Both the position numbers and the translations under genes were made by a program. DNA of 64,000 nt from the NCBI GenBank assembly GCA_900299145.1, contig OMIN01000098.1, positions 70,081-134,080 of the forward strand, given 5' to 3'. The notes beneath the pieces were generated by a model. The model was not told the DNA's origin, made no database searches, and saw only the letters and a list, made by a program, of their open reading frames with translations. How positions within the stretch are numbered: position 1 is the first letter of the stretch; the number at the start of each line of letters is the position of its first letter. Below are positions 1,647-57,444 of this stretch, piece by piece. Source of the stretch: Betaproteobacteria bacterium. GTDB taxonomy: Bacteria; Pseudomonadota; Gammaproteobacteria; Burkholderiales; SG8-41.

Positions 1647-1664
1647 TAAGTAATTGTTTTATAA
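1647..1664 (+). repeat. AT-rich boundary motif, copy 1
   Basis: TAAGTAATTGTTTTAT, followed at once by AAGGAAA and the amidase ATG at 1673. Matches the consensus TAAGTATTTGTTTTTATTGA in the sense orientation. The same leader layout recurs at 44367 and 57427. Confidence 0.7.
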
Positions 1665-1672
1665 GGAAATTT

Positions 1673-2845
1673 ATGAGTATTCTCGATCAAGACAAACTCG
1701 GCGCCTTTTGCCGTCACACCCATGTGGAAATGCAGGGCGCGGCCAGCGGCACGCTCGCGGGGCTCACGTTTGGGCTGAAAGACATTTTCGACGTGGCAGG
1801 CCACAAGACCGCATTCGGTTGCCCCGACTGGCTGCGTACGCATGAGGCTGCCAAAGTGCATTCAGTGGTCGCGAAAAAGCTGCTCGATGCCGGCGCGCAT
1901 CTCGTGGGCAAGACGCACACCGAGGAAATGGCGTTTAGCCTCACTGGCGAGAATGCTCATTACGGCACGCCGGTCAATGTGGCTGCGCCGGGGCGCGTGC
2001 CGGGCGGGTCGTCCAGCGGCTCGGCCGCGGCGGTGGCGGGCAAGCTGGTGGATTTCGCCATCGGCAGCGACACCGGCGGTTCGGTGCGCGGGCCGGCGAG
2101 TTTTTGCGGCATCTATGGCATAAGGCCCACACATGGGCGTATTTCGCTCGAAGGCGTGTGCCCGCTGGCGCCGGGGTTTGATACCTGCGGCTGGTTCGCA
2201 CGCGACGCGGATTTGATGGCGCGGGTGGGCGATGTGCTGCTCGGTGGCAAGGCAGCCACGCCGGGGCGCATTCTTCTGGCGCAGGACGCGTTTGCGCTTG
2301 CCACACCCGAAGCGCAGGCCGCGCTGCAACCCGCGCTGGCGCACGTCACCCAGGTGTTGGGCAAAGCGGAGCCGGTGACGGTTAGCGCGGAAGGCTTGAA
2401 CAACTGGTTTGAAGTGTTTCGCGTGCTGCAGTTCGCGGAAATCTGGGACACGCATCGTGAGTGGGTGATGCGCGAACGGCCGAATTTCGGCATCGCCATC
2501 GGCAAGCGCTTTGAAGCAGTGGCGAAAGTCACGGCGGCAGAGGTGGCGCAAATGAAACCCAAGCGCGAGGAAATCGCCGGGCGGATCGACAAGCTGCTCG
2601 CCAACAACGCGGTGCTGTTGTTGCCCAGCGTGCCGGATGTCGCGCCGCTGCTCAATTGTCCGCACGATCAGACCACGGCGTTTCGTGAACGCGCGATGGG
2701 CATGCTGTGCATTTCCGGCATCGGGCGGCTGCCGCAGGTAAGTTTGCCGCTCGCGAATGTCAACGGCCTGCCGCTGGGCTTGTCGATTGCAGCGGCGCGC
2801 GGCAACGATGAAATGCTGTTAGCGTTGGCGAAAAAAATAAATTAA
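1673..2845 (+). CDS. amidase-signature family hydrolase (GatA-like)
   Basis: 390 residues, shorter than GatA (about 480), so more likely a stand-alone amidase than the glutamyl-tRNA amidotransferase subunit; no gatB or gatC is nearby. The Ser-cisSer-Lys triad is visible: Lys in GLTFGLKDIFDVAG, the glycine/serine stretch GGSSSGSAAAVAGKLVDFAI, and SDTGGSVRGPASFCG. The start is the ATG at 1673, with AAGGAAA five bases upstream; an ORF extension to 1583 has no ribosome site. It probably hydrolyses a small amide. It is flanked by two inverted copies of the AT-rich motif (1647 and 2838), the second overlapping its stop codon. Confidence 0.88.
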   Translation: MSILDQDKLGAFCRHTHVEMQGAASGTLAGLTFGLKDIFDVAGHKTAFGCPDWLRTHEAAKVHSVVAKKLLDAGAHLVGKTHTEEMAFSLTGENAHYGTPVNVAAPGRVPGGSSSGSAAAVAGKLVDFAIGSDTGGSVRGPASFCGIYGIRPTHGRISLEGVCPLAPGFDTCGWFARDADLMARVGDVLLGGKAATPGRILLAQDAFALATPEAQAALQPALAHVTQVLGKAEPVTVSAEGLNNWFEVFRVLQFAEIWDTHREWVMRERPNFGIAIGKRFEAVAKVTAAEVAQMKPKREEIAGRIDKLLANNAVLLLPSVPDVAPLLNCPHDQTTAFRERAMGMLCISGIGRLPQVSLPLANVNGLPLGLSIAAARGNDEMLLALAKKIN

Positions 2846-2857
2846 AACAAATACTTA
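2838..2857 (-). repeat. AT-rich boundary motif, copy 2
   Basis: On the plus strand it ends AAAACAAATACTTA, the reverse complement of the consensus. It overlaps the amidase TAA at 2843–2845 and lies 15 bases before the PhzF-like ATG. Confidence 0.7.
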
Positions 2858-2872
2858 TGGAATAGATTTGCT

Positions 2873-3745
2873 ATGCCTCGCCACGCCTACCGCATTGTCA
2901 ACGTGTTTGCCGATGCCGCATCCCCGCAGCATCCGCTCACCGGCAACCCGCTGTGCGTATTTGAAAACGGTGCAGCCATCGACGACAAAACCCAGCAGGC
3001 GCTGGCGCAGCAATTCAATCTGTCGGAAAGTGTTTTTATTCTGCCGTCGAACAAAGCCACGGCGCGCATCCGCATTTACACCACCGCGTACGAGATGCCG
3101 TTTGCAGGCCATCCGACATTGGGCGCCGCGCATGTGGTGCGCGCGCTTCGTGGTGAGAGCGGCGCGGTCGACGCGCTGACGCTCGAAACGCTGGCGGGCG
3201 TTATTCCGGTGAACGCGCGCGGTGACGAGTGGACGCTCAAGGCCAACGCGCCGGTTGCGCGGCCGCTTGCCATGGATGACGCAGCGTTCGCTGAGCTGAT
3301 GGGGCTAAACATTGGTGATCTGGCACGGCCACCGGTTTGGGTCAGCACCGGTAACGAGCAACTCATCGCGCCTCTCGCCAGCGTTGAGGCCGTGCGCCGT
3401 TGCCGCCCCGATGCCGCGAGAATGGCAAAACTGAAAGAGCCCGCTGACGCCGGCAAAATTCTGGCGTGGGCAAACCTGCCCAACGGAGAAATCCTCGCAC
3501 GATTTTTTCTACTCAATCACGGCACCCTGCGCGAAGACTTCGGTACCGGCAGCGCCGCCGCCAATCTGTGCGGCTGGTTCGTCACGCAGCAAAATCCGCC
3601 GCTGCCGCTGCCGCTGCAACGCGTGATGTGGCAGGGCGAACCCATAGGCCGCCCGGCGAAACTTATGCTGAATGTGGACGCGCAAGGCGATATACGCATC
3701 GGCGGCCGCGTGGTGGAATTGGGCGCGGGGTCGGTCTCGCTGTAA
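2873..3745 (+). CDS. PhzF-family isomerase/epimerase-like protein
   Basis: 290 residues, the usual length of the PhzF fold (two diaminopimelate-epimerase-like halves). The N-terminal VNVFADAASPQHPLTGNPLCVF, the catalytic glutamate in NLSESVFI, the MPFAGHPTLGAAHV motif and the C-terminal DFGTGSAAANLCGW loop are all present. No phenazine genes surround it, so the phenazine reaction itself is unlikely; most homologues have unknown substrates. It follows the amidase by 27 bases, suggesting co-transcription. Confidence 0.87.
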   Translation: MPRHAYRIVNVFADAASPQHPLTGNPLCVFENGAAIDDKTQQALAQQFNLSESVFILPSNKATARIRIYTTAYEMPFAGHPTLGAAHVVRALRGESGAVDALTLETLAGVIPVNARGDEWTLKANAPVARPLAMDDAAFAELMGLNIGDLARPPVWVSTGNEQLIAPLASVEAVRRCRPDAARMAKLKEPADAGKILAWANLPNGEILARFFLLNHGTLREDFGTGSAAANLCGWFVTQQNPPLPLPLQRVMWQGEPIGRPAKLMLNVDAQGDIRIGGRVVELGAGSVSL

Positions 3746-3871
3746 CCGCTTTATGCGTATGGCGTACGGGCGCATCCGGGTGCACAATGCGGCGAGACGC
3801 ATTGCTTCAAATCTCCCTTGTCTGTTTCCGTTTTTCCATCATCTGTCACCCATCCCCGTGAGGAGAGCGCC

Positions 3872-5143: not shown

Positions 5144-5299
5144 AGCGTTCGTAGGGCGCTCGCAGGGCACTCATGGCCGGCGCACGGATTTTATTGACGA
5201 CGGCATGTTAAACTCGATTCCGCAATGCGCGACTATGGCACGGGGCGGGTGGTCCGCAGGCTAGCGGCCAAGAAATCATATTGAATCCAGGAAGACACC

Positions 5300-7747: not shown

Positions 7748-7823
7748 GGTGCACGGGCTATGGCGTAGGATAGGCAGCAGGCGTTGTTGCCAGGCCGTTA
7801 TTCAGTGACGAAAGGTTTTAAAA

Positions 7824-8879
7824 ATGTTTAATAAAAACAAATACTTACAAAACACCTGCCGATTGATTGCCGTTATTCTGTTGCTCGCCAGCGGATTAGC
7901 GGGCGCGCAGAAACTATCGCGCGCAGCGCCTTTCCCCGAAGCCTCCGAAGAACTGTACGGCATTGGCTCTGGCGGCAAACTGTATGTGTTCGGCGGCTTG
8001 GCGCCCGGCTGGAAGCCCAAGGGCCTGGTCTACGAATACGATCCGGCGAAAGATGCATGGACCAAAAAGAAAAACATGCCGATTGCCTCGCACCATCTCG
8101 CGCTGGCCGAGATGAATGGCAAGATTTATGTATTCGGCGGTTTTAAATATCCCGATAGCGGCCCGGCGGCGTGGCAGCCGATGGACAACGTGTTTGAGTA
8201 CGACCCGGCTGCGGATACATGGAAGCCGCTCGCGCCGCTGCCCACCAGACGTGGCTCGCCCAATGCGGTGGTGGCGAACGGCAAAATTCATGTGATCGGC
8301 GGCGCGGGCTTTCATCCGAACTCAAAAGAAACCGCCGTGCATCCGGCGCGCCCGCATCGCTCGCTTGGGACGCATGAAGTTTACGACCCGGCGAGTAACT
8401 CGTGGGAGACCAAACAGGCGATGCCTACCGCGCGCAATCACGCGGCAGCAGGCTTTGTCGCCGGCAAAATTTATGTGATCGGCGGGCGCATTGGCTCGGC
8501 CTTCATCACACGCGCGAGTAACACCGATATCGTCGAGGTGTATGACGTGGCCGCGGATCAATGGGGCGACTTGAAAGCGCCGATGCCAACACCGCGCAGC
8601 GCCTCGGCATGGGGCGTGCACAAGGGATTGATTTACGTCGCGGGCGGCGAGCAGCGCACCAGCGAGTTTCAGCGCACCTTCCGTGCGGTTGAGGCTTACA
8701 ACCCGGCGAACAACCGTTGGACCGCGTTGCCGCCAATGGAATTCCCGCGTCACGGCTTGGCCGGCGACATCATCAACGGCAAATTTCACCTGGTCAGCGG
8801 CGATGCGGCCTCCGGCGGCGCGCCAGGCACGCATATCGATTCGGACGTGCACGAGGTGATTGATCTGGAAGCCAAGTAG
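7824..8879 (+). CDS. secreted kelch-repeat beta-propeller protein
   Basis: 351 residues. A signal peptide (LIAVILLLASGLAGAQ) is followed by about six kelch repeats, recognisable by GGKLYVFGG, GKIYVFGGF, GKIHVIGGAG, GKIYVIGGR and LIYVAGGEQ blades, each with a downstream YDPA..W element. The first residues, MFNKNKYLQN, are encoded by a copy of the dispersed AT-rich motif (7830–7847); AAAGG lies eight bases before the ATG. Function unknown; such propellers bind sugars or proteins in the periplasm. A strong terminator follows. Confidence 0.85.
   Translation: MFNKNKYLQNTCRLIAVILLLASGLAGAQKLSRAAPFPEASEELYGIGSGGKLYVFGGLAPGWKPKGLVYEYDPAKDAWTKKKNMPIASHHLALAEMNGKIYVFGGFKYPDSGPAAWQPMDNVFEYDPAADTWKPLAPLPTRRGSPNAVVANGKIHVIGGAGFHPNSKETAVHPARPHRSLGTHEVYDPASNSWETKQAMPTARNHAAAGFVAGKIYVIGGRIGSAFITRASNTDIVEVYDVAADQWGDLKAPMPTPRSASAWGVHKGLIYVAGGEQRTSEFQRTFRAVEAYNPANNRWTALPPMEFPRHGLAGDIINGKFHLVSGDAASGGAPGTHIDSDVHEVIDLEAK
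7830..7847 (-). repeat. AT-rich boundary motif, copy 3 (inside a start region)
   Basis: AATAAAAACAAATACTTA, the reverse complement of the consensus, begins six bases after the first base of the kelch-gene ATG and codes for NKNKYL. Confidence 0.7.
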
Positions 8880-10868: not shown

Positions 10869-10886
10869 TAAGCATCAGTTTTAAAA
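10869..10886 (+). repeat. AT-rich boundary motif, copy 4
   Basis: TAAGCATCAGTTTTAAAA, about 46 bases upstream of the tonB-like ATG; a weaker match to the consensus. Confidence 0.5.
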
Positions 10887-10932
10887 CACTTTTCTTGCCA
10901 AGTGCATGGGTTTCCCGGCAAACTCTCACGCC

Positions 10933-12868: not shown

Positions 12869-13598
12869 ATCCCCCGCCCCGCCGCACGGTGCGAGGGGTG
12901 TCTTTAAGTATTTGTTTTTATTGACTTTTCGGGTTGTGCTGCTGGCGGTCTTTGGCTTGATCGCGCTGCAATTCTGGTTCTTTGCGCACGTCGCCTACTG
13001 GGTGAAATTTGATCCCGGCTCCACTGCCTTCATGCGCGCGCGGCTGGAAATTTTGCGCGAAGACAATCCCAACGCGAAGCTGCGCCACCAATGGGTGCCT
13101 TATCAAAAAATCTCGCCACATCTGAAACGCGCGCTGATAGCCGCCGAAGACGCAAAATTCCTGCAGCACCACGGCTTCGACTGGGATGGTATCAAGCAGG
13201 CGTGGGAGCGCAACCGGCGCGAGGGTGACATCGTCGCGGGGGGCTCCACCATCACGCAGCAGTTGGCGAAGAACCTGTTTTTTTCGGGCAAGCGCACGTG
13301 GTGGCGAAAGGCGCAGGAAACGGTGATTACCGCGATGCTCGAAGCGCTGATGTCCAAGCAGCGCATATTCGAGATCTATCTGAATGTGATCGAGTGGGGC
13401 GACGGCGTGTTCGGCGCCGAAGCTGCCGCGCGTTATCACTACGGCGGCACGGCAGCGGGCTTATCCGCCGAGCAGGCGGCGCGGCTGGCGGCCATGACAC
13501 CCAGCCCGCGCCGTTATGGTCCGGGCGCAAACACGGCGTATCTGCGGCAGCGCACGGCGATGATTTATGCGCGCGCGCAAGGCGTGCGCGTGCCGTAG
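12855..13598 (+). CDS. mtgA: monofunctional biosynthetic peptidoglycan transglycosylase
   Basis: 247 residues from a GTG at 12855 overlapping aroE. One N-terminal membrane anchor (LTFRVVLLAVFGLIALQFWFF) precedes the GT51 domain: the catalytic glutamate in AAEDAKFLQHHGFDWDG, GGSTITQQLAKNLFF, and IYLNVIEWGDGVFGAEAAA. It polymerises lipid II into glycan strands at the inner membrane. The segment just before the anchor (FKYLFLL) is encoded by a copy of the AT-rich motif (12905–12924); a TTG at 12921 would make a shorter protein, but no ribosome site decides between them. Confidence 0.92.
   Translation: MARGKSPAPPHGARGVFKYLFLLTFRVVLLAVFGLIALQFWFFAHVAYWVKFDPGSTAFMRARLEILREDNPNAKLRHQWVPYQKISPHLKRALIAAEDAKFLQHHGFDWDGIKQAWERNRREGDIVAGGSTITQQLAKNLFFSGKRTWWRKAQETVITAMLEALMSKQRIFEIYLNVIEWGDGVFGAEAAARYHYGGTAAGLSAEQAARLAAMTPSPRRYGPGANTAYLRQRTAMIYARAQGVRVP
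12905..12924 (+). repeat. AT-rich boundary motif, copy 5 (inside mtgA 5' end)
   Basis: An exact match to the consensus TAAGTATTTGTTTTTATTGA. If the GTG at 12855 is the true start it is translated as part of the N-terminus; if the TTG at 12921 is used, it is leader sequence. Confidence 0.75.
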
Positions 13599-18738: not shown

Positions 18739-18758
18739 TAACTATTTGTTTTTATTGA
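18739..18758 (+). repeat. AT-rich boundary motif, copy 6
   Basis: TAACTATTTGTTTTTATTGA, one mismatch from the consensus, in the divergent gap before the methyltransferase-soxXYZA block. An inverted copy closes the block at 21526. Confidence 0.75.
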
Positions 18759-18814
18759 ATTTATTTTTGCCGGTGCTGAGGCATAATATGCGCGCTATTT
18801 TAGCGGAGGCGATG

Positions 18815-21480: not shown

Positions 21481-21525
21481 TTTTTGCTGGCTGGCGTTTT
21501 TGGAATGCCGCTGCCAAATAAAATA

Positions 21526-21545
21526 TCAATAAAAACAAATACTTA
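21526..21545 (-). repeat. AT-rich boundary motif, copy 7
   Basis: On the plus strand TCAATAAAAACAAATACTTA, an exact reverse complement of the consensus, 45 bases after the soxA stop and followed by AGAAAGG and the ATG at 21560. Confidence 0.78.
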
Positions 21546-22240: not shown

Positions 22241-23200
22241 TCAGTCGAGCTTGAGCCCCAGCTCGGCGGCGAGCTTGCCATATTTCTCGCCGTCCTCGCG
22301 AATTTGCGCTGCGAACGCTGCAGGCAAGTTACCTGCCGGTTCCGCTCCCGCGCCGGACAACCGTTCACGCACGTCGGGCAGATTCAGCACGCGTGTGAAT
22401 TCAGAATGCAGTTTTGCGAGTATCACGGCCGGTGTGCCGCGCGGTGCGAGCAGGCCCACCCACTGCGTCGATTCGTAGCCGGGAAAGCCCTGTTCCGCTA
22501 CCGTGGGCAATTCCGGCATCGCGGGTGAACGCCGTGCGGTGGACATCGCCAGCGCGTTAAGGCGCCCGGCCTGCACGTGCGGCTTAACGCTGGCGGTGGT
22601 CATGCACACAAAATTCACCTGATTTGCCAGCACGGCGTTTAGCGCCAGGCCGCCACCCTTGAACGGAACGTGGGTAAAACTCACGCCCGCGCGGCGCCCG
22701 ATGAGTTCAGCGGCCAGATGGGTCATGCTGCCGGTGCCGGCCGAGGCATAGCGGATATCGGCTTTGCTTTTCGCCGCGGCGATCAAATCTTTCAGCGTCA
22801 CGGTGCGCAGCGCCGGGTGGGCCGCGCAGGTGAGCGGATTGTCGGCAATCTTGGTGATGGCATGAAAATCGCGCGCCGGATCGTACGGCAGCTTGGCAAA
22901 AATAAATGGGTTGATGCTCAGCGTGCCGACATCACCGAACAACAACGTATGGCCGTCGGGTGCGGCGCGCGCAGCGAGTTCCACGCCGATAATGCCGGAG
23001 CCGCCGCCACGATTGTCGACGATGATCGACTGGCCCCAGCGTTCGGTGATGCGCGGGCCGATCACGCGCGCGAGAAAATCCGCGCCGCCGCCGGGTGGAA
23101 AAGGCACGATCAGGCGCAGCGGGCGTGACGGATAGTCTTGGGCCTGTGCTGCTGCACCAGACAGCATGAACAACGCAATGGCGGCACGAAACTGGGTCAC
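22241..23200 (-). CDS. Bug/TctC-type periplasmic receptor
   Basis: About 319 residues if the GTG at 23200 is the start; the frame extends to a TTG at 23245 that would overlap the upstream gene, and no clear ribosome site decides. Signal peptide ALFMLSGAAAQAQ, then YPSRPLRLIVPFPPGGGAD, IIVDNRGGGSGIIG, AAPDGHTLLFGDVGTLSIN and PYDPARDFHAITK. Likely carboxylate-binding. Downstream of a DABB-like gene on the same strand; no transporter membrane genes nearby. Confidence 0.87.
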   Translation of the reverse strand: MTQFRAAIALFMLSGAAAQAQDYPSRPLRLIVPFPPGGGADFLARVIGPRITERWGQSIIVDNRGGGSGIIGVELAARAAPDGHTLLFGDVGTLSINPFIFAKLPYDPARDFHAITKIADNPLTCAAHPALRTVTLKDLIAAAKSKADIRYASAGTGSMTHLAAELIGRRAGVSFTHVPFKGGGLALNAVLANQVNFVCMTTASVKPHVQAGRLNALAMSTARRSPAMPELPTVAEQGFPGYESTQWVGLLAPRGTPAVILAKLHSEFTRVLNLPDVRERLSGAGAEPAGNLPAAFAAQIREDGEKYGKLAAELGLKLD

Positions 23201-23226
23201 GCGAGCGCGTGTTGCGAGCGGGGTAA

Positions 23227-23973
23227 CTATTCGAGCGGCGGCCAAATGCGCTCCCCGATAAACGGTGAGCCGGGCGCGTGCACGGTGCCCGCGATCACCT
23301 GTGATTCCCAGCGCGTGCGATCCAGCGCCAGCGCTTCGTGCGGCTCTTCAAAATGCTTGAGACGCGCTTCAAGCGAGGTAAATTCATACAGCACGCTGTG
23401 CTTGGCCCAGCCCGCGACACCGGCGAGTTTGCGCGTGGCGATGCAGCCGGTGAGTTGTGCCATGAACGGCAGCCGGTATTGCGCGTACCAACGGCCGAGA
23501 TCAAATTCCTCTTCGGGCGTGCGCATGCGAAAGCTGCCCATCTGGATGGCCGGCCCCGGCCCAGTGCCAGGCCCATGTTCGCGTGGCGCCGGGCCGTTGA
23601 CACTGGCCTCCACCGTGAACACCGCCGTGCGCAAGCCCGTTCTTTGCGACAACCTGGCATCGAAGCCTTCGTGTAGCACGGCATCCTTGATCGAGGGCTT
23701 GAAAAAGTTGTGCGCTGAAAGCCCACCCACCAGCAGCAGATAATCGTTGCCGCTACCGATGGCGTCCTGCGTGCGGCCGACGGCGGTGGTTTTGACTTTC
23801 TCCATTTGCGGGCCGCCGCCAGTATGCCGGTAGTGCGCCACCCACGTGTAGCCCGGCTGCGCGCGCAGATAGGGGCAGTAGACCTCGTGCGTCCAGTCGA
23901 GAAATTGCTGGCGCGCCTCGCTTGTTACGCCCTGTGCGAGGTCATACCAGGTGGCCCAGATGCCTTCCGCCAT
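23227..23973 (-). CDS. DABB-like protein, distant relative of the 21560 gene
   Basis: 248 residues, ATG at 23973. WTHEVYCPYLRAQPGYTW and WYAQYRLPFMAQLTGC mark two alpha/beta barrel-like halves, weakly similar to the WYDTEHxP protein at 21560–22213. Function unknown. It is upstream of a tctC gene on the same strand and preceded by a copy of the AT-rich motif. Confidence 0.7.
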   Translation of the reverse strand: MAEGIWATWYDLAQGVTSEARQQFLDWTHEVYCPYLRAQPGYTWVAHYRHTGGGPQMEKVKTTAVGRTQDAIGSGNDYLLLVGGLSAHNFFKPSIKDAVLHEGFDARLSQRTGLRTAVFTVEASVNGPAPREHGPGTGPGPAIQMGSFRMRTPEEEFDLGRWYAQYRLPFMAQLTGCIATRKLAGVAGWAKHSVLYEFTSLEARLKHFEEPHEALALDRTRWESQVIAGTVHAPGSPFIGERIWPPLE

Positions 23974-23994
23974 GGCGTTTGTATGATAAAAATA

Positions 23995-24014
23995 TCAATA
24001 AAAACAGATGCTTA
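23995..24014 (-). repeat. AT-rich boundary motif, copy 8
   Basis: Plus strand TCAATAAAAACAGATGCTTA, two changes from the consensus complement, between two minus-strand genes and 22 bases upstream of the 23973 start. Confidence 0.72.
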
Positions 24015-27825: not shown

Positions 27826-27851
27826 ATAATCCCGGCATGCGCCGGGATTAT
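27826..27851. repeat. perfect palindrome upstream of soxC
   Basis: Eleven-base inverted repeat ATAATCCCGGC / GCCGGGATTAT around ATGC. The same core (AATCCCGGC..GCCGGGATT) recurs at 30347–30367, in both places beside an AT-rich motif. It can form a hairpin on either strand; it may act as a leader hairpin, a terminator or a protein site. Confidence 0.8.
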
Positions 27852-27856
27852 TTGCC

Positions 27857-27873
27857 ATTAAAACAGATGCTTA
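27857..27873 (-). repeat. AT-rich boundary motif, copy 9
   Basis: Plus strand ATTAAAACAGATGCTTA, complement of the consensus with the C-variants TAAGCATCTG, five bases from the palindrome upstream of soxC. Confidence 0.65.
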
Positions 27874-30346: not shown

Positions 30347-30367
30347 AATCCCGGCAATGCCGGGATT
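30347..30367. repeat. palindrome upstream of the diguanylate cyclase
   Basis: AATCCCGGCA and TGCCGGGATT arms around a single A, the same core as the soxC palindrome at 27826–27851, again next to an AT-rich motif. Confidence 0.78.
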
Positions 30368-30370
30368 ATC

Positions 30371-30388
30371 TTTTAAAACAAAGAGTTA
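30371..30388 (-). repeat. AT-rich boundary motif, copy 10
   Basis: Plus strand TTTTAAAACAAAGAGTTA, a diverged complement of the consensus, three bases after the palindrome and between the diguanylate cyclase and korB. Confidence 0.5.
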
Positions 30389-31455: not shown

Positions 31456-33290
31456 GATGCAGCCTTTTTCATTGGCACCACTGTGTGTGCCGCAATGTGA
31501 TTGGCAATCTGGTCGGCGATGAATCGCGCAGTGATCGGCGTGCCGTCGTAGTGCAGCACGGAGATCAAACGATCTACGTTGATCTGCTCTTCGGTCACCA
31601 GCATGGTTTTCAATTGCGCATCGCGGTTCTGCTCGATGATGAAGGTGCCGGGATGCGACATCACGAACTCCTTCACCTCCTGCGCAAACGGGAAGCCGCG
31701 CACGCGCATGGCGTCAACATGGATGCCTTGCGCGGCAAGCACATCCAGCGCTTCGGTCATGGCCGGGCTGGTGGAGCCGTAATACAACGCGCCGAACCGG
31801 GCCTCGCCCTTGGCCTTGGTCAGCACCGGTTGCGGCACCAGCTTTTTCGCGGTGTCGAATTTCTTCAAGAGCCGCGTGACGTTCTCGATGTAATCAGGCC
31901 CAGCCTCGCTGTAGCGCGCGTAGGTGTCTTTGGTGGTCCCGCGAGTAAAGTAGGCGCCCAACTGCGGGTGCGTGCCAGGATAGGTGCGATACGGAATACC
32001 GTCACCGTCGACGTCCTTGTAGCGGCCGAAATCCGCACCGCCTTCAAGCATGTCGTAAGTCATGACCTTGCCGCGGTCGTATTGCGCCTTATCGTCCCAC
32101 GAGAATGGGCGGCACAGGCGTGTGTTCATGCCAATATCGAGGTCGGTCATCACGAACACCGGCGTTTGCAGTCGCTCGGCGAGCTCAAGCGCCTGCGCGG
32201 TCATCTCGAAACACTCGGTCGGGTCTTCCGGGAACAGCAGCACATGCTTGGTATCGCCGTGCGAGGCGTAGGCGCAAGCCAGCAAATCCGACTGCTGTGT
32301 GCGTGTTGGCATGCCAGTGGACGGCCCACCGCGCTGTACATCGACCAGCACCACGGGTATTTCCGCAAAATAGGCGAGGCCAATGAACTCCGTCATCAGC
32401 GAAATGCCGGGGCCGGACGTCGCGGTAAACGAACGCGCGCCATTCCAGCCCGCGCCGATCGCCATGCCGATGGAAGCCAGCTCGTCCTCGGCCTGAATGA
32501 TGGCGTAGCGCGACTTGCCGGTTTCTGGCTCGGCCCGCATCTTGCGGCAATAGGCAATAAAGGCCTCCGCCAACGACGAGGATGGCGTGATGGGGTACCA
32601 CGCGCACACCGAAGCACCGCCGTATACCGCGCCCAGCGCGGCCGCGCTGTTGCCATCGATAAAGATTTTATCGCCCACGTTATTGGCAGCCTTCACGGTG
32701 AGGCCGCTGGGGCATTGCAGGTTTTTCAGCGCGTAGTCGCGGCCCAGGTGCAGAGCCTTGATGTTGGATTGCAGCAGCGCTTCCTTGCCCTTGTATTGCT
32801 CGGCAAAGAGTTTTTCGATCACGGCAGGGTCGATTTGCAGCAGCGCTGACAACGCGCCGACATAAATGATGTTCTTGAACAACTGCCGCTGGCGCGGATC
32901 GCTATACGTCGCGTTGCAGATTTCCGTCAGCGGCATGCCGATCACGTTGACGTCGTCGCGGAATTTCGACTTCGGCATCGGCTTGGAGTTGTCGTAAAAA
33001 AGATAGCCGCCGGGAGAAATCTCCTTGATGTCCTTGTCCCACGTTTGCGGGTTCATGGCCACCATCATGTCCACGCCGCCGCGCCGGCCAAGATAGCCCG
33101 CCTCGGTCACGCGCACTTCGTACCACGTGGGCAGGCCCTGGATGTTCGACGGGAAGATGTTGCGCGGGCTCACCGGTACGCCCATGCGCAGGATCGAGCG
33201 CGCGAACAGTTCGTTCGCCGATGCCGAGCCGGAGCCGTTGACGTTGGCGAACTTAACGACGAAGTCGTTAACTGCTGAGATTTGTTTCAT
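31452..33290 (-). CDS. korA: 2-oxoacid oxidoreductase, fused gamma-alpha subunit (KorA-like)
   Basis: 612 residues. Residues 1–190 are the gamma domain (NVNGSGSASANELFARSILRMG); from about 210 the alpha domain begins (GNSAAALGAVYGGASVCAWYPITPSSSLAEA) with IIQAEDELASIGMAIGAGWNGARSFTATSGPG. The ATG at 33290 follows directly on a copy of the AT-rich motif, with no clear Shine-Dalgarno sequence. The fusion and size (about 66 kDa) resemble the gamma-alpha subunit described for Azoarcus evansii. Confidence 0.9.
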   Translation of the reverse strand: MKQISAVNDFVVKFANVNGSGSASANELFARSILRMGVPVSPRNIFPSNIQGLPTWYEVRVTEAGYLGRRGGVDMMVAMNPQTWDKDIKEISPGGYLFYDNSKPMPKSKFRDDVNVIGMPLTEICNATYSDPRQRQLFKNIIYVGALSALLQIDPAVIEKLFAEQYKGKEALLQSNIKALHLGRDYALKNLQCPSGLTVKAANNVGDKIFIDGNSAAALGAVYGGASVCAWYPITPSSSLAEAFIAYCRKMRAEPETGKSRYAIIQAEDELASIGMAIGAGWNGARSFTATSGPGISLMTEFIGLAYFAEIPVVLVDVQRGGPSTGMPTRTQQSDLLACAYASHGDTKHVLLFPEDPTECFEMTAQALELAERLQTPVFVMTDLDIGMNTRLCRPFSWDDKAQYDRGKVMTYDMLEGGADFGRYKDVDGDGIPYRTYPGTHPQLGAYFTRGTTKDTYARYSEAGPDYIENVTRLLKKFDTAKKLVPQPVLTKAKGEARFGALYYGSTSPAMTEALDVLAAQGIHVDAMRVRGFPFAQEVKEFVMSHPGTFIIEQNRDAQLKTMLVTEEQINVDRLISVLHYDGTPITARFIADQIANHIAAHTVVPMKKAAS

Positions 33291-33309
33291 AACTATTTGA
33301 TTTAATTTA
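33290..33309 (+). repeat. AT-rich boundary motif, copy 11 (touches korA start)
   Basis: TAACTATTTGATTTAATTTA; the complement of its first base is the A of the korA ATG. It fills the gap between korA and the upstream FAD gene. Confidence 0.68.
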
Positions 33310-33314
33310 ATATT

Positions 33315-35192
33315 TTAGGCTGCCTTGCGCTGCGTTGATTTCCCGCCGGTACGGCAAGCCGGCCCGGCATGCGTCATCTGGATCAGGTATTTCTGCATAT
33401 CCCACGCGCCCGTCGGGCAACGCTCGGCGCACAGGCCGCAGTGCAGGCACACGTCCTCGTCCTTGGCCATGATGCGCCCGGTCATTTTTAGTAGCGGCGA
33501 GACGTAGAGGTCCTGCGTCTTCGGGTGCAACGAAGGTGCGTTGAGTGACTCGCGCAGTTCCTTTTCCTCGGCATCCGGCGTGAACGTGATGCAGTCCATC
33601 GGGCAGATGTCCACGCACGCATCGCATTCGATGCACAGCTTTTCGGAAAACACGGTCTGCACGTCGCAATTCAGGCAGCGTTGCGCTTCGGCAAAGCCTG
33701 ACTTCTGGTCAAAACCCAACTCCACTTCAACCTTGATGTCCTTCAGCGTGAGCTTCTTGTCCTTCCAGGGCACGCGATTGCGCAGATGTTCGGAGATATC
33801 GTTGTCGTAGCTCCACTCGTGGATGCCCATCTTCTGCGACACGATATTCATCATCGGGTCGGGGCGCTCGCTCACATCCTCGCCCTGCAAAAATTTGTCG
33901 ATGGACACCGCGGCATCGTGGCCATGTGCCACCGCCCAGATGATGTTCTTCGGGCCGAACGCCGCGTCGCCGCCGAAGAACAGCGTCGGCACGTTTGATT
34001 GCATGGTGACGGTGTCGACCTTCGGCATGCCCCATTTGTCCCACTCAAGACCCACGTCCTTCTCGATCCACGGAAAGGCGTTTTCCTGGCCGATGGCCAC
34101 CAGCACATCGTCGCAGGGGTAAAAATGATCCGGCTCGCCGGTGGGCACCAGGTTGCGGCGGCCCTTGGCGTCGTACTCCGCCTTCACTTTCTCGAAGGTC
34201 ATGCCGACCAGTTTGCCGTTCTCGAGCTTGAACTCTTTCGGCACCAGAAAGTTGAGGATGGGAATGCCTTCTTCCACCGCGTCTTCCTTCTCCCACGGCG
34301 AGGCTTTCATTTCCTCGTAGCCGGAGCGCACGATCACTTTCACATCCTCGCCGCCGAGGCGCTTGCTGGAGCGGCAGCAGTCCATCGCCGTGTTGCCACC
34401 GCCAAGCACAATGACTTTCTTGCCGATTTTGTCGACGTGGCCGAACGACACGCTGTTCAGCCAATCAATGCCGATGTGGATATTGGCGGCGGCTTCCTTG
34501 CGGCCGGGGATTTCGAGATCCCGCCCGCGCGGCGCGCCGGTGCCGACGAAAATCGCGTCGTAGCCATCCTTCATCAACTGCTTCATGCTGTCGATGCGGT
34601 GGCCGCCTTTGTAATCGATGTTGCCGATGTCGAGGATGAAGCTGCATTCTTCGTCGATCACTTCCTCCGGCAGACGGAAGCGCGGCACCTGCGTGCGCAT
34701 GAAGCCGCCCGGCTTGGGGTCGGCTTCGAACACGGTAATGTGATAACCCAGCGGCGCGAGATCGCGCGCCACGGTGAGCGACGCGGGGCCCGCGCCGACG
34801 CAGGCGATTTTCTTGCTATTGGTTTTTGCCGGCGCTTTGGGCATGCGCGGCTTTACGTTTGCCGCGGATTTGTTGTCCGCCGTGACGCGCTTCAGGCGGC
34901 AAATCGCCACCGGCTCTGCCTTGGGCTCACCGTGCTCCGTGGGCTTGCGCATCTCGACATTGCCTTCTTCCACGCGGCCGCGGCGGCAGGCGGGCTCGCA
35001 CGGGCGGTCGCAGGTGCGGCCCAAAATTCCGGGGAACACATTTGATTTCCAGTTGACCATGTAGGCGTCGTCATAGCGGCCTTGCGCGATCAAGCGGATG
35101 TATTCAGGGACGGGCGTGTGAGCGGGGCACGCGTACTGGCAATCAACAACTTTGTGAAAGTACTCGGGATGCGAAATATCGGTGGGCTTCAA
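33315..35192 (-). CDS. FAD/NAD(P)-binding iron-sulfur oxidoreductase (GltD-like, third Kor subunit)
   Basis: 625 residues from a TTG at 35192, with GGAG six bases upstream. N-terminal cysteine region (CQYACPAHTPVPEYI, TCDRPCEPACRRG) as in glutamate synthase small subunit, FAD loop VGAGPASLTVARDL near residue 133, NAD(P) loop VLGGGNTAMDCCRSS, then two 4Fe-4S motifs at the C-terminus: CIECDACVDICPMDC and CLHCGLCAERCPTGA. With korA and korB it would pass electrons from the 2-oxoacid to NADP, as the delta subunit of the Azoarcus enzyme does. Confidence 0.88.
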   Translation of the reverse strand: MKPTDISHPEYFHKVVDCQYACPAHTPVPEYIRLIAQGRYDDAYMVNWKSNVFPGILGRTCDRPCEPACRRGRVEEGNVEMRKPTEHGEPKAEPVAICRLKRVTADNKSAANVKPRMPKAPAKTNSKKIACVGAGPASLTVARDLAPLGYHITVFEADPKPGGFMRTQVPRFRLPEEVIDEECSFILDIGNIDYKGGHRIDSMKQLMKDGYDAIFVGTGAPRGRDLEIPGRKEAAANIHIGIDWLNSVSFGHVDKIGKKVIVLGGGNTAMDCCRSSKRLGGEDVKVIVRSGYEEMKASPWEKEDAVEEGIPILNFLVPKEFKLENGKLVGMTFEKVKAEYDAKGRRNLVPTGEPDHFYPCDDVLVAIGQENAFPWIEKDVGLEWDKWGMPKVDTVTMQSNVPTLFFGGDAAFGPKNIIWAVAHGHDAAVSIDKFLQGEDVSERPDPMMNIVSQKMGIHEWSYDNDISEHLRNRVPWKDKKLTLKDIKVEVELGFDQKSGFAEAQRCLNCDVQTVFSEKLCIECDACVDICPMDCITFTPDAEEKELRESLNAPSLHPKTQDLYVSPLLKMTGRIMAKDEDVCLHCGLCAERCPTGAWDMQKYLIQMTHAGPACRTGGKSTQRKAA

Positions 35193-35221: not shown

Positions 35222-35241
35222 CAACTAATTGTTTTTATTGA
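35222..35241 (+). repeat. AT-rich boundary motif, copy 12
   Basis: CAACTAATTGTTTTTATTGA, 30 bases upstream of the TTG start of the minus-strand FAD gene. The gap 35193–35400 to the next plus-strand gene holds this motif and otherwise no recognised element. Confidence 0.68.
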
Positions 35242-35400
35242 ATAATTTGTTGCAGCAAGCGCGAGATGGGACATTAAAGTGGCGGTAATACTACCGCTTT
35301 GTGACGGCGCTGAGAAGTACGGTTAAAACAGGGCAGAAAGCAGCGCTACACCCGCTGCTCACGCGCGGCTAAACTGCGCATTCATTAACGTGGAGAACTC

Positions 35401-36434: not shown

Positions 36435-36453
36435 TAACTATCTGATTTAATTA
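36435..36453 (+). repeat. AT-rich boundary motif, copy 13
   Basis: TAACTATCTGATTTAATTA, 16 bases before the ATG of the second tandem receptor gene. An inverted copy lies at 37529, so this gene is bracketed. Confidence 0.65.
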
Positions 36454-36469
36454 CTTTTGGGTGGCTGAC

Positions 36470-37477: not shown

Positions 37478-37528
37478 TAGTGATTGCGTTGATGGCCGTG
37501 CCAACGGATATTCAACCTTCTTAAAATA

Positions 37529-37548
37529 TTAATAAAAACAAATACTTA
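37529..37548 (-). repeat. AT-rich boundary motif, copy 14 (touches tctC start)
   Basis: Plus strand TTAATAAAAACAAATACTTA; its last A is the first base of the ATG at 37548. Confidence 0.75.
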
Positions 37549-38543
37549 TGAAATTCACTTGGTGCGCGGCAATCAGTGATTTGGGCGTCATGATGCTGTG
37601 CTGTGCGTCGATCATCGCCGTCAATGCAACCGCACTTGCTGCAGACAACTGGCCCAGCAAACCCGTGCGCATCGTCAACCCGTACACCGCGGGCGGCGGC
37701 GTCGACGTCGTGGGCCGTGCCATTGCGCAGCAGTTGTCGGAGCTGTGGGGCCAGCCGGTGGTGACGGACAATCGTCCCGGCGCGGGCACCACGCTCGGCA
37801 TGGAAATCGTCGCCCACGCGCCGGCCGATGGCTACACGCTGCTGGTGAGCAACGGCGCAGTGGCAACTGCACCAGCGCTGTATCCAAAGTTGAATTACAA
37901 CGTGAGCAAAGACCTTGCGCCCATCGTGCTGGCGGTGCAATCGCCGTACGTTCTGACCGTGCATCCCTCGGTTAAAGCCCAATCGGTGCAGGCGTTGTTG
38001 AGCCTTGCGCGCGCGCAGCCTGGCAAGCTCACCTACGGCTCGGTCGGCATGGGCTCACCCGCGCATCTGATGACGGAACTCTTGCGCGCGATGACCGGTA
38101 CCGACATGGTGCACGTGCCATACAAAGGCGGCGCGCCGTCTACCACCGGGCTGCTGTCCGGCGAAATTCAGGTGCTGTTCAGTCCCATCTCCACCATGCT
38201 GCCGCACGCCAGGGCAGGCCGCGCGCGCGTGCTGGCGGTATCCAGCGCCAAACGCGTGGAACTTGCGCCGGATTTACCGTCAGTGGCCGAAGCCGGCGTG
38301 CCGGGTTTCGATGGTACCAGTTGGTATCCGTTCTTCGCGCCCGCGCGCACGCCAATGGCGCTGATTCAGAAAATCAACACCGACATCAACCGCATTCTGC
38401 AAAAACCGGACGTGCGCAGCCGCTTTCTCGCCATGGGCATGATTCCGGCGGGTGGCGCGCCGGAGGTGTTGCGCGATTATCTGGCGGTGGAAATCAAACG
38501 CTGGGGGAAGGTGATTGCGGATACCGGCGTTAGGGCGGAGTAG
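37548..38543 (+). CDS. Bug/TctC-type receptor (third in tandem)
   Basis: 331 residues. Signal peptide (MLCCASIIAVNATALAA), then WPSKPVRIVNPYTAGGGVD, VVTDNRPGAGTTLG, HAPADGYTLLVSNGAV and DMVHVPYKGGAPSTTGLL. The ATG lies inside a copy of the AT-rich motif and no Shine-Dalgarno sequence precedes it. Its 3' end overlaps the convergent TetR remnant by about 67 bases. Confidence 0.88.
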   Translation: MKFTWCAAISDLGVMMLCCASIIAVNATALAADNWPSKPVRIVNPYTAGGGVDVVGRAIAQQLSELWGQPVVTDNRPGAGTTLGMEIVAHAPADGYTLLVSNGAVATAPALYPKLNYNVSKDLAPIVLAVQSPYVLTVHPSVKAQSVQALLSLARAQPGKLTYGSVGMGSPAHLMTELLRAMTGTDMVHVPYKGGAPSTTGLLSGEIQVLFSPISTMLPHARAGRARVLAVSSAKRVELAPDLPSVAEAGVPGFDGTSWYPFFAPARTPMALIQKINTDINRILQKPDVRSRFLAMGMIPAGGAPEVLRDYLAVEIKRWGKVIADTGVRAE

Positions 38544-40138: not shown

Positions 40139-40158
40139 TAAGTATTTGTTTTAATTAA
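40139..40158 (+). repeat. AT-rich boundary motif, copy 15 (convergent gap)
   Basis: TAAGTATTTGTTTTAATTAA starts two bases after the stop of the small membrane protein and about 85 bases before the end of the convergent MFS gene. It is upstream of no gene. Confidence 0.72.
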
Positions 40159-40242
40159 ATTATTTTTGGATGCTATAGAGGAATCGCCCGCTGGGGCAAG
40201 GCGGTGAAGCACACCGGCGAAACCGCAGAGTAACGAACGGCG

Positions 40243-44366: not shown

Positions 44367-44386
44367 TAAGTATCTGTTTTATAAAG
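44367..44386 (+). repeat. AT-rich boundary motif, copy 16
   Basis: TAAGTATCTGTTTTATAAAG, running into AAAGGAAA and the ATG at 44395; nearly the same leader as at 1647 and 57427. Confidence 0.72.
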
Positions 44387-44394
44387 GAAATATT

Positions 44395-45183
44395 ATGAGC
44401 GAAAAATGGTGCCGATTTCAGGCTGGTGGTAAAGTTTCATTCGGCCGTATCGACGGCGACAGCGTGACGGCCATCGACGGTGAGCCGTGGGGCGCGCACA
44501 CCGTGACGTCCAACAAACACGCGCTGTCGTCGGTAAAGCTGCTGATTCCGACCGTGCCGTCGACGTTTTACTGCGTCGGTATTAACTACCGCGAGCACAT
44601 TATTCAGGCTGCAAAGCGCCGCGGCGTAGAGCCACAATTTCCGCAGCGGCCCGACATCGGCTACCGCGCCAACAACGCGTTGTGCGCGCATGAAGATCCG
44701 ATTATCAAGCCGAAAGACGCTGGCGACATTTTCCAGTACGAAGGCGAACTCGTCGCCATTATCGGCAAGCAGGGCAAAAAAATCCCCAAGGAAAAGGCGC
44801 TGGATTACGTGTTCGGCTGGACCATCGGCAACGATGTGTCCGAGCGCACCTGGCAACGCGGCGACCGCACGCTATGGCGCGGCAAAAACGCGGATACATT
44901 CAAACCGATGGGTCCGTGGATTGTCACCGGTCTGGATTACCGCAAGATGACCACGGTGGTGCGCCTGAACGGGCAGGAAGTCGACCGCTTCAACACCTGG
45001 GACATGATTCACGACGTCGAAACCTACATCGAGGAAGTCAGCAAGTACTGCACACTGTATCCGGGCGATGTGATGTGGATGGGCACCGATGGCTCGCCGC
45101 GCAACATGAAGCCGGGCGACGTGTGCGAGGTGGATATCACCGGCATTGGTACGTTGCGTAACAAGGTGGTGCTGGAAAGCTAG
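44395..45183 (+). CDS. fumarylacetoacetate hydrolase family protein
   Basis: 262 residues; ATG at 44395 with AAAGGAAA upstream. FAH-fold motifs: FYCVGINYREHI, metal ligands in FQYEGELVAIIGKQG, then FGWTIGNDVSERTWQRGD and KPMGPWIVTG, and GDVMWMGTDGSP. The family hydrolyses or decarboxylates beta-dicarbonyl acids in aromatic catabolism. The exact substrate is not predictable. Confidence 0.88.
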   Translation: MSEKWCRFQAGGKVSFGRIDGDSVTAIDGEPWGAHTVTSNKHALSSVKLLIPTVPSTFYCVGINYREHIIQAAKRRGVEPQFPQRPDIGYRANNALCAHEDPIIKPKDAGDIFQYEGELVAIIGKQGKKIPKEKALDYVFGWTIGNDVSERTWQRGDRTLWRGKNADTFKPMGPWIVTGLDYRKMTTVVRLNGQEVDRFNTWDMIHDVETYIEEVSKYCTLYPGDVMWMGTDGSPRNMKPGDVCEVDITGIGTLRNKVVLES

Positions 45184-49700: not shown

Positions 49701-49720
49701 TAACTATATGTTTTTATTGA
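49701..49720 (+). repeat. AT-rich boundary motif, copy 17
   Basis: TAACTATATGTTTTTATTGA, three bases after the Ldh-like stop codon and about 120 bases before the NIPSNAP gene. Confidence 0.72.
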
Positions 49721-49839
49721 ATTTTATCCCGACTTTTAATCTGGGCGCCGCGCAGCGCAGGCGTGTTACCCGCCGGCCGCAAGGTGTTCCAACTAAACTG
49801 CGTTCAACCTGACCCAAAAACTCACACACGGAGGTTTCC

Positions 49840-50303: not shown

Positions 50304-51086
50304 TTACTCGCAGCGCGCGCGGAAGGTCTCGCCGGGTTTTAACGATTCGGCGCAGCGCAGGATTTTTTCCAGATGCGTGTGTTTGTTTTTGAGCGCGAAC
50401 TCCAGCGCCGTCATGCCGTTTTGCACGCGCACGCTGGCATTGGCCCCGGCACGCAGCAGTTGTAACGCGGCATTGCGGTGGCCCTGCATCGCCGCCATCA
50501 TCAACGGTGTGTTGACGTAACTCACGCGGCCCTGCGCCGGGCCGTTGGCATTGGCGCCTTTCTTCAGCAAATACGCCAGCGCTTCCTCACGCCCGGCATA
50601 AGCCGCATAGGCGAGCGGTGTGTAGGCATTGATCTCGGCATTCTCGAGATTCGCGCCCGCTTCGGCCAGCAAACGCACTGCCTGGTCGTAGCGCAGTATC
50701 GCCGCGCCGCCGCGGTCACGATCATCGTCACTGAACAGCGCTGCCAGCATGAGCGCCGTGTCGCGATCCGGTGTGCGCGCATTGAGATCGGCCTTTTCCG
50801 CGATCAGATAGCGCAACACGTTAAGCGACGCATTGCGTGCGGCCGCCGTAACCATCGGCGCCGCCGCGTAGCCAATGCCCGACGCGCTGTCGTTCACCGA
50901 TAGCGCCTTTGCTTCCACCCGGGCACGCACGTAGCTGGCATCATCGATGGCGATCGCACCGCCAAGCGCCTGCGGATCGATTGGTCCGGCAGGCGGGCTA
51001 GTCGCACAGCCTGCCGCAACTGCCACGGTAGCGAACGCCACGGCCCATCGCGAGAAATTATCTAAGCATTTGTTTTTAAATAACAT
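50304..51086 (-). CDS. ankyrin-repeat lipoprotein
   Basis: 260 residues, ATG at 51086. Lipoprotein signal with lipobox (VAFATVAVAAGCATSP), then about four ankyrin repeats, e.g. NAYTPLAYAAYAGREEALAYLLKKGAN and VNTPLMMAAMQGHRNAALQLLRAGAN. Its first residues, MLFKNKCLDN, are encoded by a copy of the AT-rich motif, as in the kelch gene (MFNKNKYLQN), and no Shine-Dalgarno sequence precedes the ATG. Probably a periplasmic protein-binding scaffold. Confidence 0.85.
   Translation of the reverse strand: MLFKNKCLDNFSRWAVAFATVAVAAGCATSPPAGPIDPQALGGAIAIDDASYVRARVEAKALSVNDSASGIGYAAAPMVTAAARNASLNVLRYLIAEKADLNARTPDRDTALMLAALFSDDDRDRGGAAILRYDQAVRLLAEAGANLENAEINAYTPLAYAAYAGREEALAYLLKKGANANGPAQGRVSYVNTPLMMAAMQGHRNAALQLLRAGANASVRVQNGMTALEFALKNKHTHLEKILRCAESLKPGETFRARCE
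51063..51082 (+). repeat. AT-rich boundary motif, copy 18 (inside a start region)
   Basis: TAAGCATTTGTTTTTAAATA on the plus strand; read on the minus strand it codes for codons 2–8 of the ankyrin lipoprotein. Confidence 0.7.
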
Positions 51087-51137
51087 TTTTACAATGGCTA
51101 TTTCAAGGTCAACGCAGTATAGCCAAAATCGAAACAC

Positions 51138-54455: not shown

Positions 54456-54462
54456 TGCACTG

Positions 54463-56426: not shown

Positions 56427-56434
56427 CTAGATAT

Positions 56435-56442
56435 TGTATACA
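56435..56442. promoter_or_regulatory. TGTATACA palindrome, probable GntR operator (site 1)
   Basis: A perfect eight-base palindrome nine bases upstream of the gntR ATG, embedded in ATTGTATACACG. The same eight bases recur at 56525. GntR/FCD repressors often bind short palindromes of this kind. Confidence 0.65.
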
Positions 56443-56524
56443 CGTTGTTTGCGCACTTCAACGAGGCATCAGAGGAAAATGTGCACCAATAGCGGGAACA
56501 CTTGGACAGATCAGAGCAATTGAC

Positions 56525-56532
56525 TGTATACA
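56525..56532. promoter_or_regulatory. TGTATACA palindrome, probable GntR operator (site 2)
   Basis: Second copy, in CTGTATACAATT, 23 bases before the uraD ATG and 90 bases from site 1. The pair would let one regulator control both divergent operons. Confidence 0.65.
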
Positions 56533-56554
56533 ATTTTGCGGCTAATGTTCCTGC

Positions 56555-57067
56555 ATGAATCGGCTAGACGAGATCAACGGTGCTGACCTGCCACGCTGCA
56601 TCCAGTTGCTTGGGGGGGTTTTCGAACATTCACCCTGGGTTGCCGAACATGCCGCCACGGCGCGACCGTTCGCGTCGGGCGAGCATCTGCATCGGACGAT
56701 GTTGCAGGCCGTCATGCAGGCCGGCGTGGACAAGCGACTGGCACTGATACGGGCTCACCCTGAACTGGCGGGACGTGAGGCGGTGGAAGGGGGAATGACC
56801 CCAGACTCCACCAGTGAGCAGGGACGTTTGGGGCTGACCGCGTTGCCCAAGGCTGAGTTCGATCGCATTACGCAATTGAACCGGGCTTATCGCGAGAAAT
56901 TCGGTTTCCCCTGCATTGTGGCACTCAAATTGCATGACACGCGTGACACCGTATTGGCGCAGATGGCGCAGCGGCTCGCAAACGATCGTGACACCGAGAT
57001 CGCCAACGCACTGGAGCAAATTGGCCACATAACGCGCGCGCGCGTGGATAGACTGCTGGAGACTTGA
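56555..57067 (+). CDS. uraD: OHCU decarboxylase
   Basis: 170 residues. 2-oxo-4-hydroxy-4-carboxy-5-ureidoimidazoline decarboxylase: the catalytic histidine in [22 protein letters not shown] and [13 protein letters not shown] are the family signatures. Produces S-allantoin, the PuuE substrate. Its stop is one base before the uraH ATG. Confidence 0.92.
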
Positions 57068-57068
57068 C

Positions 57069-57422
57069 ATGGGACGACTGACAACGCATGTGCTCGACAC
57101 TGCGCATGGCAAACCGGCCGCCGGCATGCACATCGAGTTTTCCGCGCGCGACGGGGCGGGATGGAAGCTCATCAAACGCATCGCGACCAACGCCGATGGC
57201 CGCACTGATGAGCCACTGCTGTCTGGCGATGCAATGCAGGCAGGGGAATATCAGTTGCTGTTTCATGCCGGAGACTACTTTCGCCAGCTCGGCGCCGCAC
57301 TGCCGCAGCCTGCGTTTCTGGATCGCGTGCCGCTCATCTTCGGCATTGCTGATGCGAGCGCGCATTACCACGTGCCCTTGCTTTGCAGTCCATGGTCGTA
57401 TTCCACCTATCGTGGCAGTTAA
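57069..57422 (+). CDS. uraH: 5-hydroxyisourate hydrolase
   Basis: 117 residues, transthyretin-related. N-terminal [17 protein letters not shown] with the catalytic histidine, an arginine in the middle strand, [19 protein letters not shown] at the C-terminus with the family's YRGS end. Acts between PuuD and UraD. Confidence 0.93.
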
Positions 57423-57426
57423 CCCA

Positions 57427-57444
57427 TAAGATATTGTTTTTAAA
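57427..57444 (+). repeat. AT-rich boundary motif, copy 19
   Basis: TAAGATATTGTTTTTAAA, running into AAAGGAAAA and the ATG at 57453. Confidence 0.62.

Follow-up and report, generated by a model that had tools for sequence, protein, structure and literature searches.

We asked what a short motif, repeated in both orientations at gene edges, is doing in the window, that is, the whole 64,000-nt stretch of betaproteobacterial DNA that was analysed. Judging from sequence features and genome comparisons, each copy is probably a strong predicted IHF site, read on the other strand, and part of a lattice that covers the genome of a lineage in which HU was not detected. We rank this probable reading above a DNA uptake sequence, the main alternative, which we consider unlikely.

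A copy was present at all 19 places listed in the initial annotation, and a matrix scan of the window (score of at least 20) returned the same 19 sites (Table 1); for minus-strand copies, the coordinate listed there is the left end of the reverse complement. Placement at gene edges held in general, but the midpoint fell inside a called gene in three copies. The convergent gap around one copy was confirmed, copies that include or touch a start codon were seen as described, and the 58–64 kb segment, reported as free of the motif, held no site scoring at least 15 in the matrix scan. The proposed length of 20 bases was too short: positions above background run from about −7 to +28, and the alignment profile (96 copies with no more than one mismatch, one of which lacked full flanks) gives a repeat unit of ~28–31 bp. 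The information in this profile tapers at both ends, positions 4–6 are strongly fixed in the own genus, and no palindrome is present. Searches of the window for Rfam families and tRNA genes gave no match. The core, allowing up to two mismatches, had 20 matches in the window against 0.78 ± 0.80 in 100 shuffles (largest 3). Among these, 18 were copies already listed and the copy at 57427 was missing; weak extra matches off the list lay at 58874 and 61711.

Table 1. Copies of the motif in the window, with matrix score, gene context and presence in congeners.
Feature	Coordinates	Strand	Score	Gene context	Congeners and remarks
Motif copy	1647..1674	+	37.5	runs into start of gene 1673-2845 +	
Motif copy	2830..2857	-	47.3	over stop of gene 1673-2845 +; midpoint inside gene	
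Motif copy	7820..7847	-	49.8	over start of gene 7824-8879 +; midpoint inside gene	
Motif copy	10869..10896	+	30.5	tandem gap	
Motif copy	12905..12932	+	38.0	tandem gap	absent in G010, sole congener compared there
Motif copy	18739..18766	+	50.1	divergent gap	kept, same orientation, in G010
Motif copy	21518..21545	-	50.4	tandem gap	
Motif copy	23987..24014	-	47.8	tandem gap	
Weak motif copy	27846..27873	-	24.3	tandem gap	inverted repeat adjoins
Weak motif copy	30361..30388	-	24.5	tandem gap	inverted repeat adjoins
Motif copy	33290..33317	+	48.3	touches start of gene 31452-33290 -	strict match to IHF consensus (position 10 is A); kept in 6/9 (gene-pair comparison)
Motif copy	35222..35249	+	41.1	divergent gap	kept in 4/4 (gene-pair comparison)
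Motif copy	36435..36462	+	29.0	tandem gap	kept in G007, sole congener compared there
Motif copy	37521..37548	-	50.1	reaches start codon of gene 37548-38543 +	missing from G006, sole congener compared there
Motif copy	40139..40166	+	46.9	convergent gap	
Motif copy	44367..44394	+	33.6	immediately 5' of gene 44395-45183 +	
Motif copy	49701..49728	+	45.3	tandem gap	
Motif copy	51063..51090	+	36.4	over start of gene 50304-51086 -; midpoint inside gene	
Weak motif copy	57427..57454	+	21.5	runs into start of gene 57453-58427 +	

The 5.5 Mb genome to which the window belongs contained 784 exact cores (379 on the plus and 405 on the minus strand; reversed-pattern control, 0), so the motif is not confined to the window. 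The matrix found 122 sites in 459 kb of this genome, which extrapolates to roughly 1,400–1,500 sites, or one per 3.6–3.8 kb, mostly at gene edges. Among gaps of at least 20 bases, the 43 convergent gaps contained the midpoints of 13 sites, the 54 divergent gaps those of 17 and the 198 tandem gaps those of 58; with a tolerance of 5 bases, the numbers of occupied gaps were 14, 17 and 58. Occupancy per gap is thus similar in the three classes, while per base the divergent gaps were the poorest. Sites in tandem gaps showed no bias of orientation (30 same, 28 opposite). The spacing was even, with a coefficient of variation of 0.62 against 0.85 ± 0.07 for random placements (0 of 2000 equally even). 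A stricter shuffle gave 0.73 against 0.87 ± 0.09 (P 0.029); intervals shorter than 1 kb numbered 1, where 8.0 ± 2.4 were expected (P 0.001).

Some copies lie just 5' of start codons, as a promoter, operator or leader element would. The similar rates in all gap classes, the even spacing, the conserved place and the lack of orientation bias speak against such an element, which has a preferred upstream place and orientation that we did not find; moreover, promoters are expected in divergent gaps, and these are the poorest per base. We therefore regard this explanation as very improbable: the leader element suggested in the initial annotation was not supported, and its doubt about a promoter of fixed geometry was borne out by the orientations and the occupied convergent gaps. 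A crude-filter scan for sigma-54 promoters near the sites found none. An association with terminators or hairpins was rejected, as hairpins occurred in 8 of the 244 flanks of sites and in 21 of 316 control flanks, and so was strand polarity (the local GC skew was matched by 52 of 122 sites, and 59 of 115 neighbours had a common orientation).

In reversed form the motif reads YAANNNNYTG(A/T)TW with a T-tract, and it stands above background over ~35 bp. Extracts of the IHF literature describe a consensus WATCARNNNNTTR, an A-tract upstream in strong sites and a wrapped site of 35 bp (PMC8421141, PMC9519438, PMC9820253). Read on the other strand, the motif conforms to the 13-bp consensus and is like the strong A-tract sites in the ~35-bp extent and, judged by side, in the upstream place of its A-tract. 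The two-fold degenerate position 7 (T/C) also agrees with the IHF consensus. YAAN4YTGWTW was matched by 110 of the 122 own sites, and 114 had five or six A/T letters among the six tract positions 21–26, counts that are partly circular because the sites were picked by the same matrix.

Features of the motif itself argue against IHF. Position 10, an A in the published consensus, is mostly T in the own genome, where 24 of 122 sites matched the strict form; it is also T in 44 of 50 sites of G020, from another genus, while congener G006 had the strict YAAN4YTGATW in 35 of 43. Furthermore, positions 4–6, free in the IHF consensus, are fixed in the own genus beyond what that consensus demands. In G020, searched with positions 4–7 free, positions 4–6 varied and position 7 was T or C in 45 of 50 sites, which is what IHF predicts. 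The fixed positions, together with the restriction of motif-rich genomes to four genera among 49 family genomes, could instead point to another family-specific DNA-organising or global regulatory protein whose site resembles that of IHF by chance. The consensus, the footprint and the position of the tract agree with IHF, and we consider this other protein improbable.

The array also departs from known IHF sites. An extract of the IHF paper gives around 300 consensus sites for E. coli, whereas here the exact cores, and the more than 1,000 near-identical sites extrapolated from the matrix, are evenly spread and occur in every gap class. The RIB/BIME-1 elements of E. coli, as summarised in PMC2817692, are extragenic repeats in which IHF is bound between REP palindromes. 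Our motif would share with them the binding of IHF to extragenic repeats, but it has neither palindrome nor hairpin enrichment, does not lie between REP palindromes and is not confined to the 3' ends of transcription units.

Our search for DNABII proteins in the own genome yielded IhfA and IhfB alone and no HU gene. Among the 49 family genomes (completeness of at least 90%; motif-rich, at least 20 matches of TAASNNNNTGWTTTWAT), an HU-like protein was found in none of the 30 motif-rich genomes and in 11 of the 19 motif-poor ones. The absence of HU is less certain in three of the motif-rich genomes, since G010 gave no DNABII match and G026 and G086 one each; two others, G093 and G096, had a third, distant DNABII protein. 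Absence of HU is not sufficient for the motif, as 8 of the 19 motif-poor genomes likewise had no detected HU and a further 8 genomes from beyond the family, in which no HU-like match turned up, had only 0–4 pattern matches; the two traits may reflect one shared inheritance. We rejected the idea that an additional DNABII paralog drives the motif, given that motif-rich genomes mostly had two such proteins and motif-poor ones often three or more.

Under the IHF reading, this lineage would rely on IHF as its main DNABII protein, and IHF would bend the DNA sharply at each site; the sites, in either orientation, would hold the tips of supercoils or the ends of domains at gene boundaries, and loss of HU would have driven their spread. 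Of the meanings proposed in the initial annotation, a binding site for a chromosome-organising protein is thus the best supported, by the IHF consensus, the A-tract and the even, orientation-free arrangement, with the binding itself predicted. Nucleoid proteins usually bind loosely, and for that reason we judge the extent to which chromosome folding is encoded in sequence to be an open question. Folding may perhaps be written into the sequence here. More specifically, we put forward, tentatively and as somewhat less than an even chance, that folding is sequence-encoded in an HU-less Burkholderiales clade, through a lattice of almost perfect IHF sites that lie at gene edges roughly 3.6 kb apart, stay in place from one species to another and perhaps change their letters with the genus's altered IHF arms. 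The altered arm residue also occurs in motif-free G009, and few genomes entered the comparison of arms and dialects (the IhfB comparison left out G030 and G045, and the IHF-arm comparison the protein from L253, in G093). Such a lineage, with even, near-identical IHF-type sites and no detected HU, would make the folding question testable, as predicted contact borders could be checked site by site.

In conserved gene pairs with a site in both species, orientation agreed in 12 of 12 cases. The relative lacked the site at 5 of 17 own sites. In the 16 comparisons in which the own gap, usually a short one, had no site, none of the relatives had one either. The high copy number, and a 1-base gap in G003 where the own genome has a 24-base gap with a site, would be accounted for by a small mobile or copied repeat or, as initially suggested, by the junction of shuffled gene blocks. 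The constant orientation speaks against shuffled blocks, and the tapering profile, the lack of relative-only sites and a siteless gap in G001 that holds sequence of the same length below scoring all weigh against mobility; we give this explanation hardly any credence.

An uptake sequence would be a short tag that a minor pilin recognises in natural transformation, that has dialects of its own and that accumulates through preferential uptake of DNA from kin. The USS of Pasteurellaceae and DUS of Neisseriaceae are described, in extracts of PMC1626085 and PMC3630211, as lacking orientation bias, spaced more regularly than at random, preferring non-coding DNA, very strong in consensus and varied in dialect, and the USS as having two AT-rich segments 3' of its core. 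Our motif is similar in all of these, including dialects among congeners (position 10 being T or A), and so strong a consensus is, in the same part of PMC1626085, typical of uptake sequences and not of regulator sites, which counts against IHF. The own genome has ComEC and GspH-domain proteins, and G009, a congener with almost no motif, gave a match to neither, but G009 differs in GC as well. These proteins do not appear to track the motif, since ComEC was found in 54 and GspH in 55 of 60 family genomes, including motif-free ones, and motif-rich G083 had no ComEC match. The core differs from those of USS and DUS, the motif is roughly four times sparser than the one per kb cited in PMC1626085, and the close, oppositely oriented pairs formed by some uptake-sequence copies in that extract are missing (115 intervals, the smallest 199 bases, 3 under 1 kb). 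An uptake sequence would also leave the IHF consensus fit, tract position and footprint to chance, and no receptor was identified. If the motif were nonetheless one, it would lie outside both families in which, according to that 2006 paper, uptake sequences were known. Among the open-licence papers listed, no title or abstract opening mentioned such a site array or an uptake sequence in this group, which is weak evidence of absence.

Finally, we surveyed the order with an IHF-plus-tract pattern, which had 281 matches in the own genome (control 0). Of the 288 genomes that lie outside the family, 287 had 0–13 matches. The remaining one, AT-rich G209, had 43 matches (control 4). Independent amplification there was rejected, with a GC of about 0.4 and 2 pattern matches in 112 kb; its commonest 10-mers form what we take to be a DUS-like word.

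The initial annotation had placed copies of an AT-rich repeat at 19 positions, and inspection of the sequence at each of them recovered a copy in all 19 cases. The core of the motif gave 20 matches with at most two mismatches in the window (0.78 ± 0.80 in shuffles). The complete assembly, 5,508,723 bases in 158 contigs, contains 784 exact cores, 379 on the plus and 405 on the minus strand, and the reversed-core control gave no match. A detailed sample of 459 kb, comprising the window and 395 kb of the same genome beside it, contained 122 cores when two mismatches were allowed (61 exact, 35 carrying one and 26 carrying two), and a matrix scan at a score of at least 20 likewise returned 122 sites; by extrapolation, the whole genome holds about 1,460. 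Third-order Markov random DNA derived from the sample (three sets, 1.38 Mb) yielded two matrix matches above 12 and none at or above 18, and ten sets from an intergenic model yielded none.

Gene edges are approximate, because genes were called with a simple purpose-made codon model. Tandem gaps held 58 of the 122 sites (30 along the genes, 28 against), divergent gaps 17 and convergent gaps 13; three sites had a called gene on one side only, and the midpoint of the other 31 fell inside a called gene. Of these 31, 12 lay no more than 30 bases from the start, 5 no more than 11 from the stop, and 14 were deeper. Counting gaps 20 bases or longer, the 459 kb has 198 tandem, 54 divergent and 43 convergent ones, and about 30% of each class is occupied; divergent gaps are longer and thus poorer in sites per base. 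Neighbouring sites showed no link in orientation (59 of 115 alike), nor was orientation tied to GC skew (52 of 122 in agreement).

The 115 intervals between sites averaged 3,645 bases, with a coefficient of variation (CV) of 0.62. Random placement in gaps gave a CV of 0.85 ± 0.07, none of 2,000 placements being as even as observed, and 15.5 ± 3.2 intervals below 1 kb against the 3 observed. When occupancy was permuted only among gaps of equal class and length, the observed CV was 0.73 versus 0.87 ± 0.09 (P 0.029), with one interval below 1 kb versus 8.0 ± 2.4 (P 0.001). That the sites avoid each other and ignore orientation fits a part in chromosome architecture better than one in regulation.

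Of the 96 copies that differ from the core by no more than one base, 95 entered a profile, RTAASTATYTGTTTTWATTGAWWTTTTTT, which exceeds background between about -7 and +28 and comprises two T-rich stretches with about one helical turn between them. Its likeness to the site of integration host factor (IHF) was recognised only after the motif had been built. Excerpts of PMC8421141, PMC9519438 and PMC9820253 give the IHF consensus as WATCARNNNNTTR and describe 35 bp of wrapped DNA and, in the strongest sites, an upstream A-tract. On the opposite strand this reads YAANNNNYTGATW and then a T-tract, and the motif agrees at all fixed and two-fold positions save position 10, which is T in 86% of 95 copies. 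The strict consensus (A at position 10) fits 24 of 122 sites here and 35 of 43 in the congener G006, 91% of whose 43 sites carry A at that position; these figures are partly circular, because the matrices choosing the sites already contain the motif. The motif dialect differs between the two genomes, and G006 has 16 exact cores but 664 looser-pattern matches. The free position in another genome, G020, is a fairer test: among 50 matches to a pattern that did not constrain positions 4-7, positions 4-6 varied, position 7 was T or C in 45, and position 10 was T in 44. Judged from sequence, the copies are predicted IHF sites, a reading that we favour with moderate confidence.

That the motif is instead a DNA uptake sequence seems unlikely to us. 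The sections of PMC1626085 consulted describe a similar kind of distribution, a strong consensus and, for the uptake signal sequences (USS), AT-rich segments on the 3' side, as in the motif, but close inverted site pairs are absent here, and the fit to the IHF consensus would be a coincidence. The nearly motif-free congener G009 has no ComEC or GspH match; otherwise, however, these proteins do not track the motif, and the motif-rich G083 also lacks a ComEC match. Separately, an AT-rich genome of the same order outside the family (G209; L274-L285) contains highly repeated 10-mers such as GGCAGCCTGA, which we take to resemble an uptake sequence dialect.

Exact-core counts ranged from 0 to 515 across 13 congeners and from 0 to 238 across 34 genomes of other genera of the family SG8-41, and none of 32 genomes outside it had more than one. 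Among 33 conserved gene pairs compared between the window and nine relatives, a site was present in both species in 12 (orientation identical in all 12), in our genome only in 5, in neither in 16, where our gaps were mostly short, and in the relative only in none.

Window coordinates of a motif site compared with relatives and of two long reading frames
Feature	Position	Strand	Observation
Motif site	33290		Genome G001: sequence of equal length, no score; genome G003: gap of one base
Long reading frame	22241-23245	-	No NCBIfam match at E 0.001
Long reading frame	57453-58427	+	No NCBIfam match at E 0.001

Our search for proteins of the IHF/HU family (DNABII) in this genome found two, IhfB (E 3e-32 to PDB chain 1ihf_B) and IhfA (E 2e-38 to 1ihf_A). 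With an HU of the family as query and at least 70% identity as threshold, in 49 family genomes at least 90% complete, an HU-like protein was found in none of the 30 motif-rich genomes (at least 20 looser-pattern matches) and in 11 of the 19 motif-poor ones, including one partial match in G085; the other eight were G009, G014, G016, G021, G024, G032, G037 and G039. In the motif-rich G010 no DNABII protein at all was found, and in G026 and G086, also motif-rich, only one each. In a survey of 299 genomes of the order, all 11 family members sampled and 8 of the 288 others lacked an HU-like match, their best E being above 1e-16, and those eight had 0-4 matches to the IHF-plus-tract pattern. HU absence accompanies the motif array but is not sufficient for it, because genomes with few motifs and no HU-like match exist inside and outside the family; the two may share one common inheritance.

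Parts of the IHF literature report a bend of about 160 degrees, and simulations in the portion of PMC9519438 consulted suggest that IHF pins plectoneme positions. If the copies are IHF sites, the protein would bend DNA sharply at each of them and the bent sites would fix plectoneme positions, resulting in boundaries between genes every few kilobases in a cell without HU.

G009 (L168, L169, L249; GC 0.51) has a third DNABII protein, which is IhfB-like. G021, G032 and G037, of genus g9, have four each with no HU-like match; the two extra proteins read from G021 resemble divergent IhfA forms. Among the IhfA sequences read, which include L234, L236, L238 and even-numbered L254-L268, all six from other genera keep D or N at the third residue of the arm motif LR(D/N)K, and all 11 of the window's genus, motif-free G009 included, have I, L or V there.
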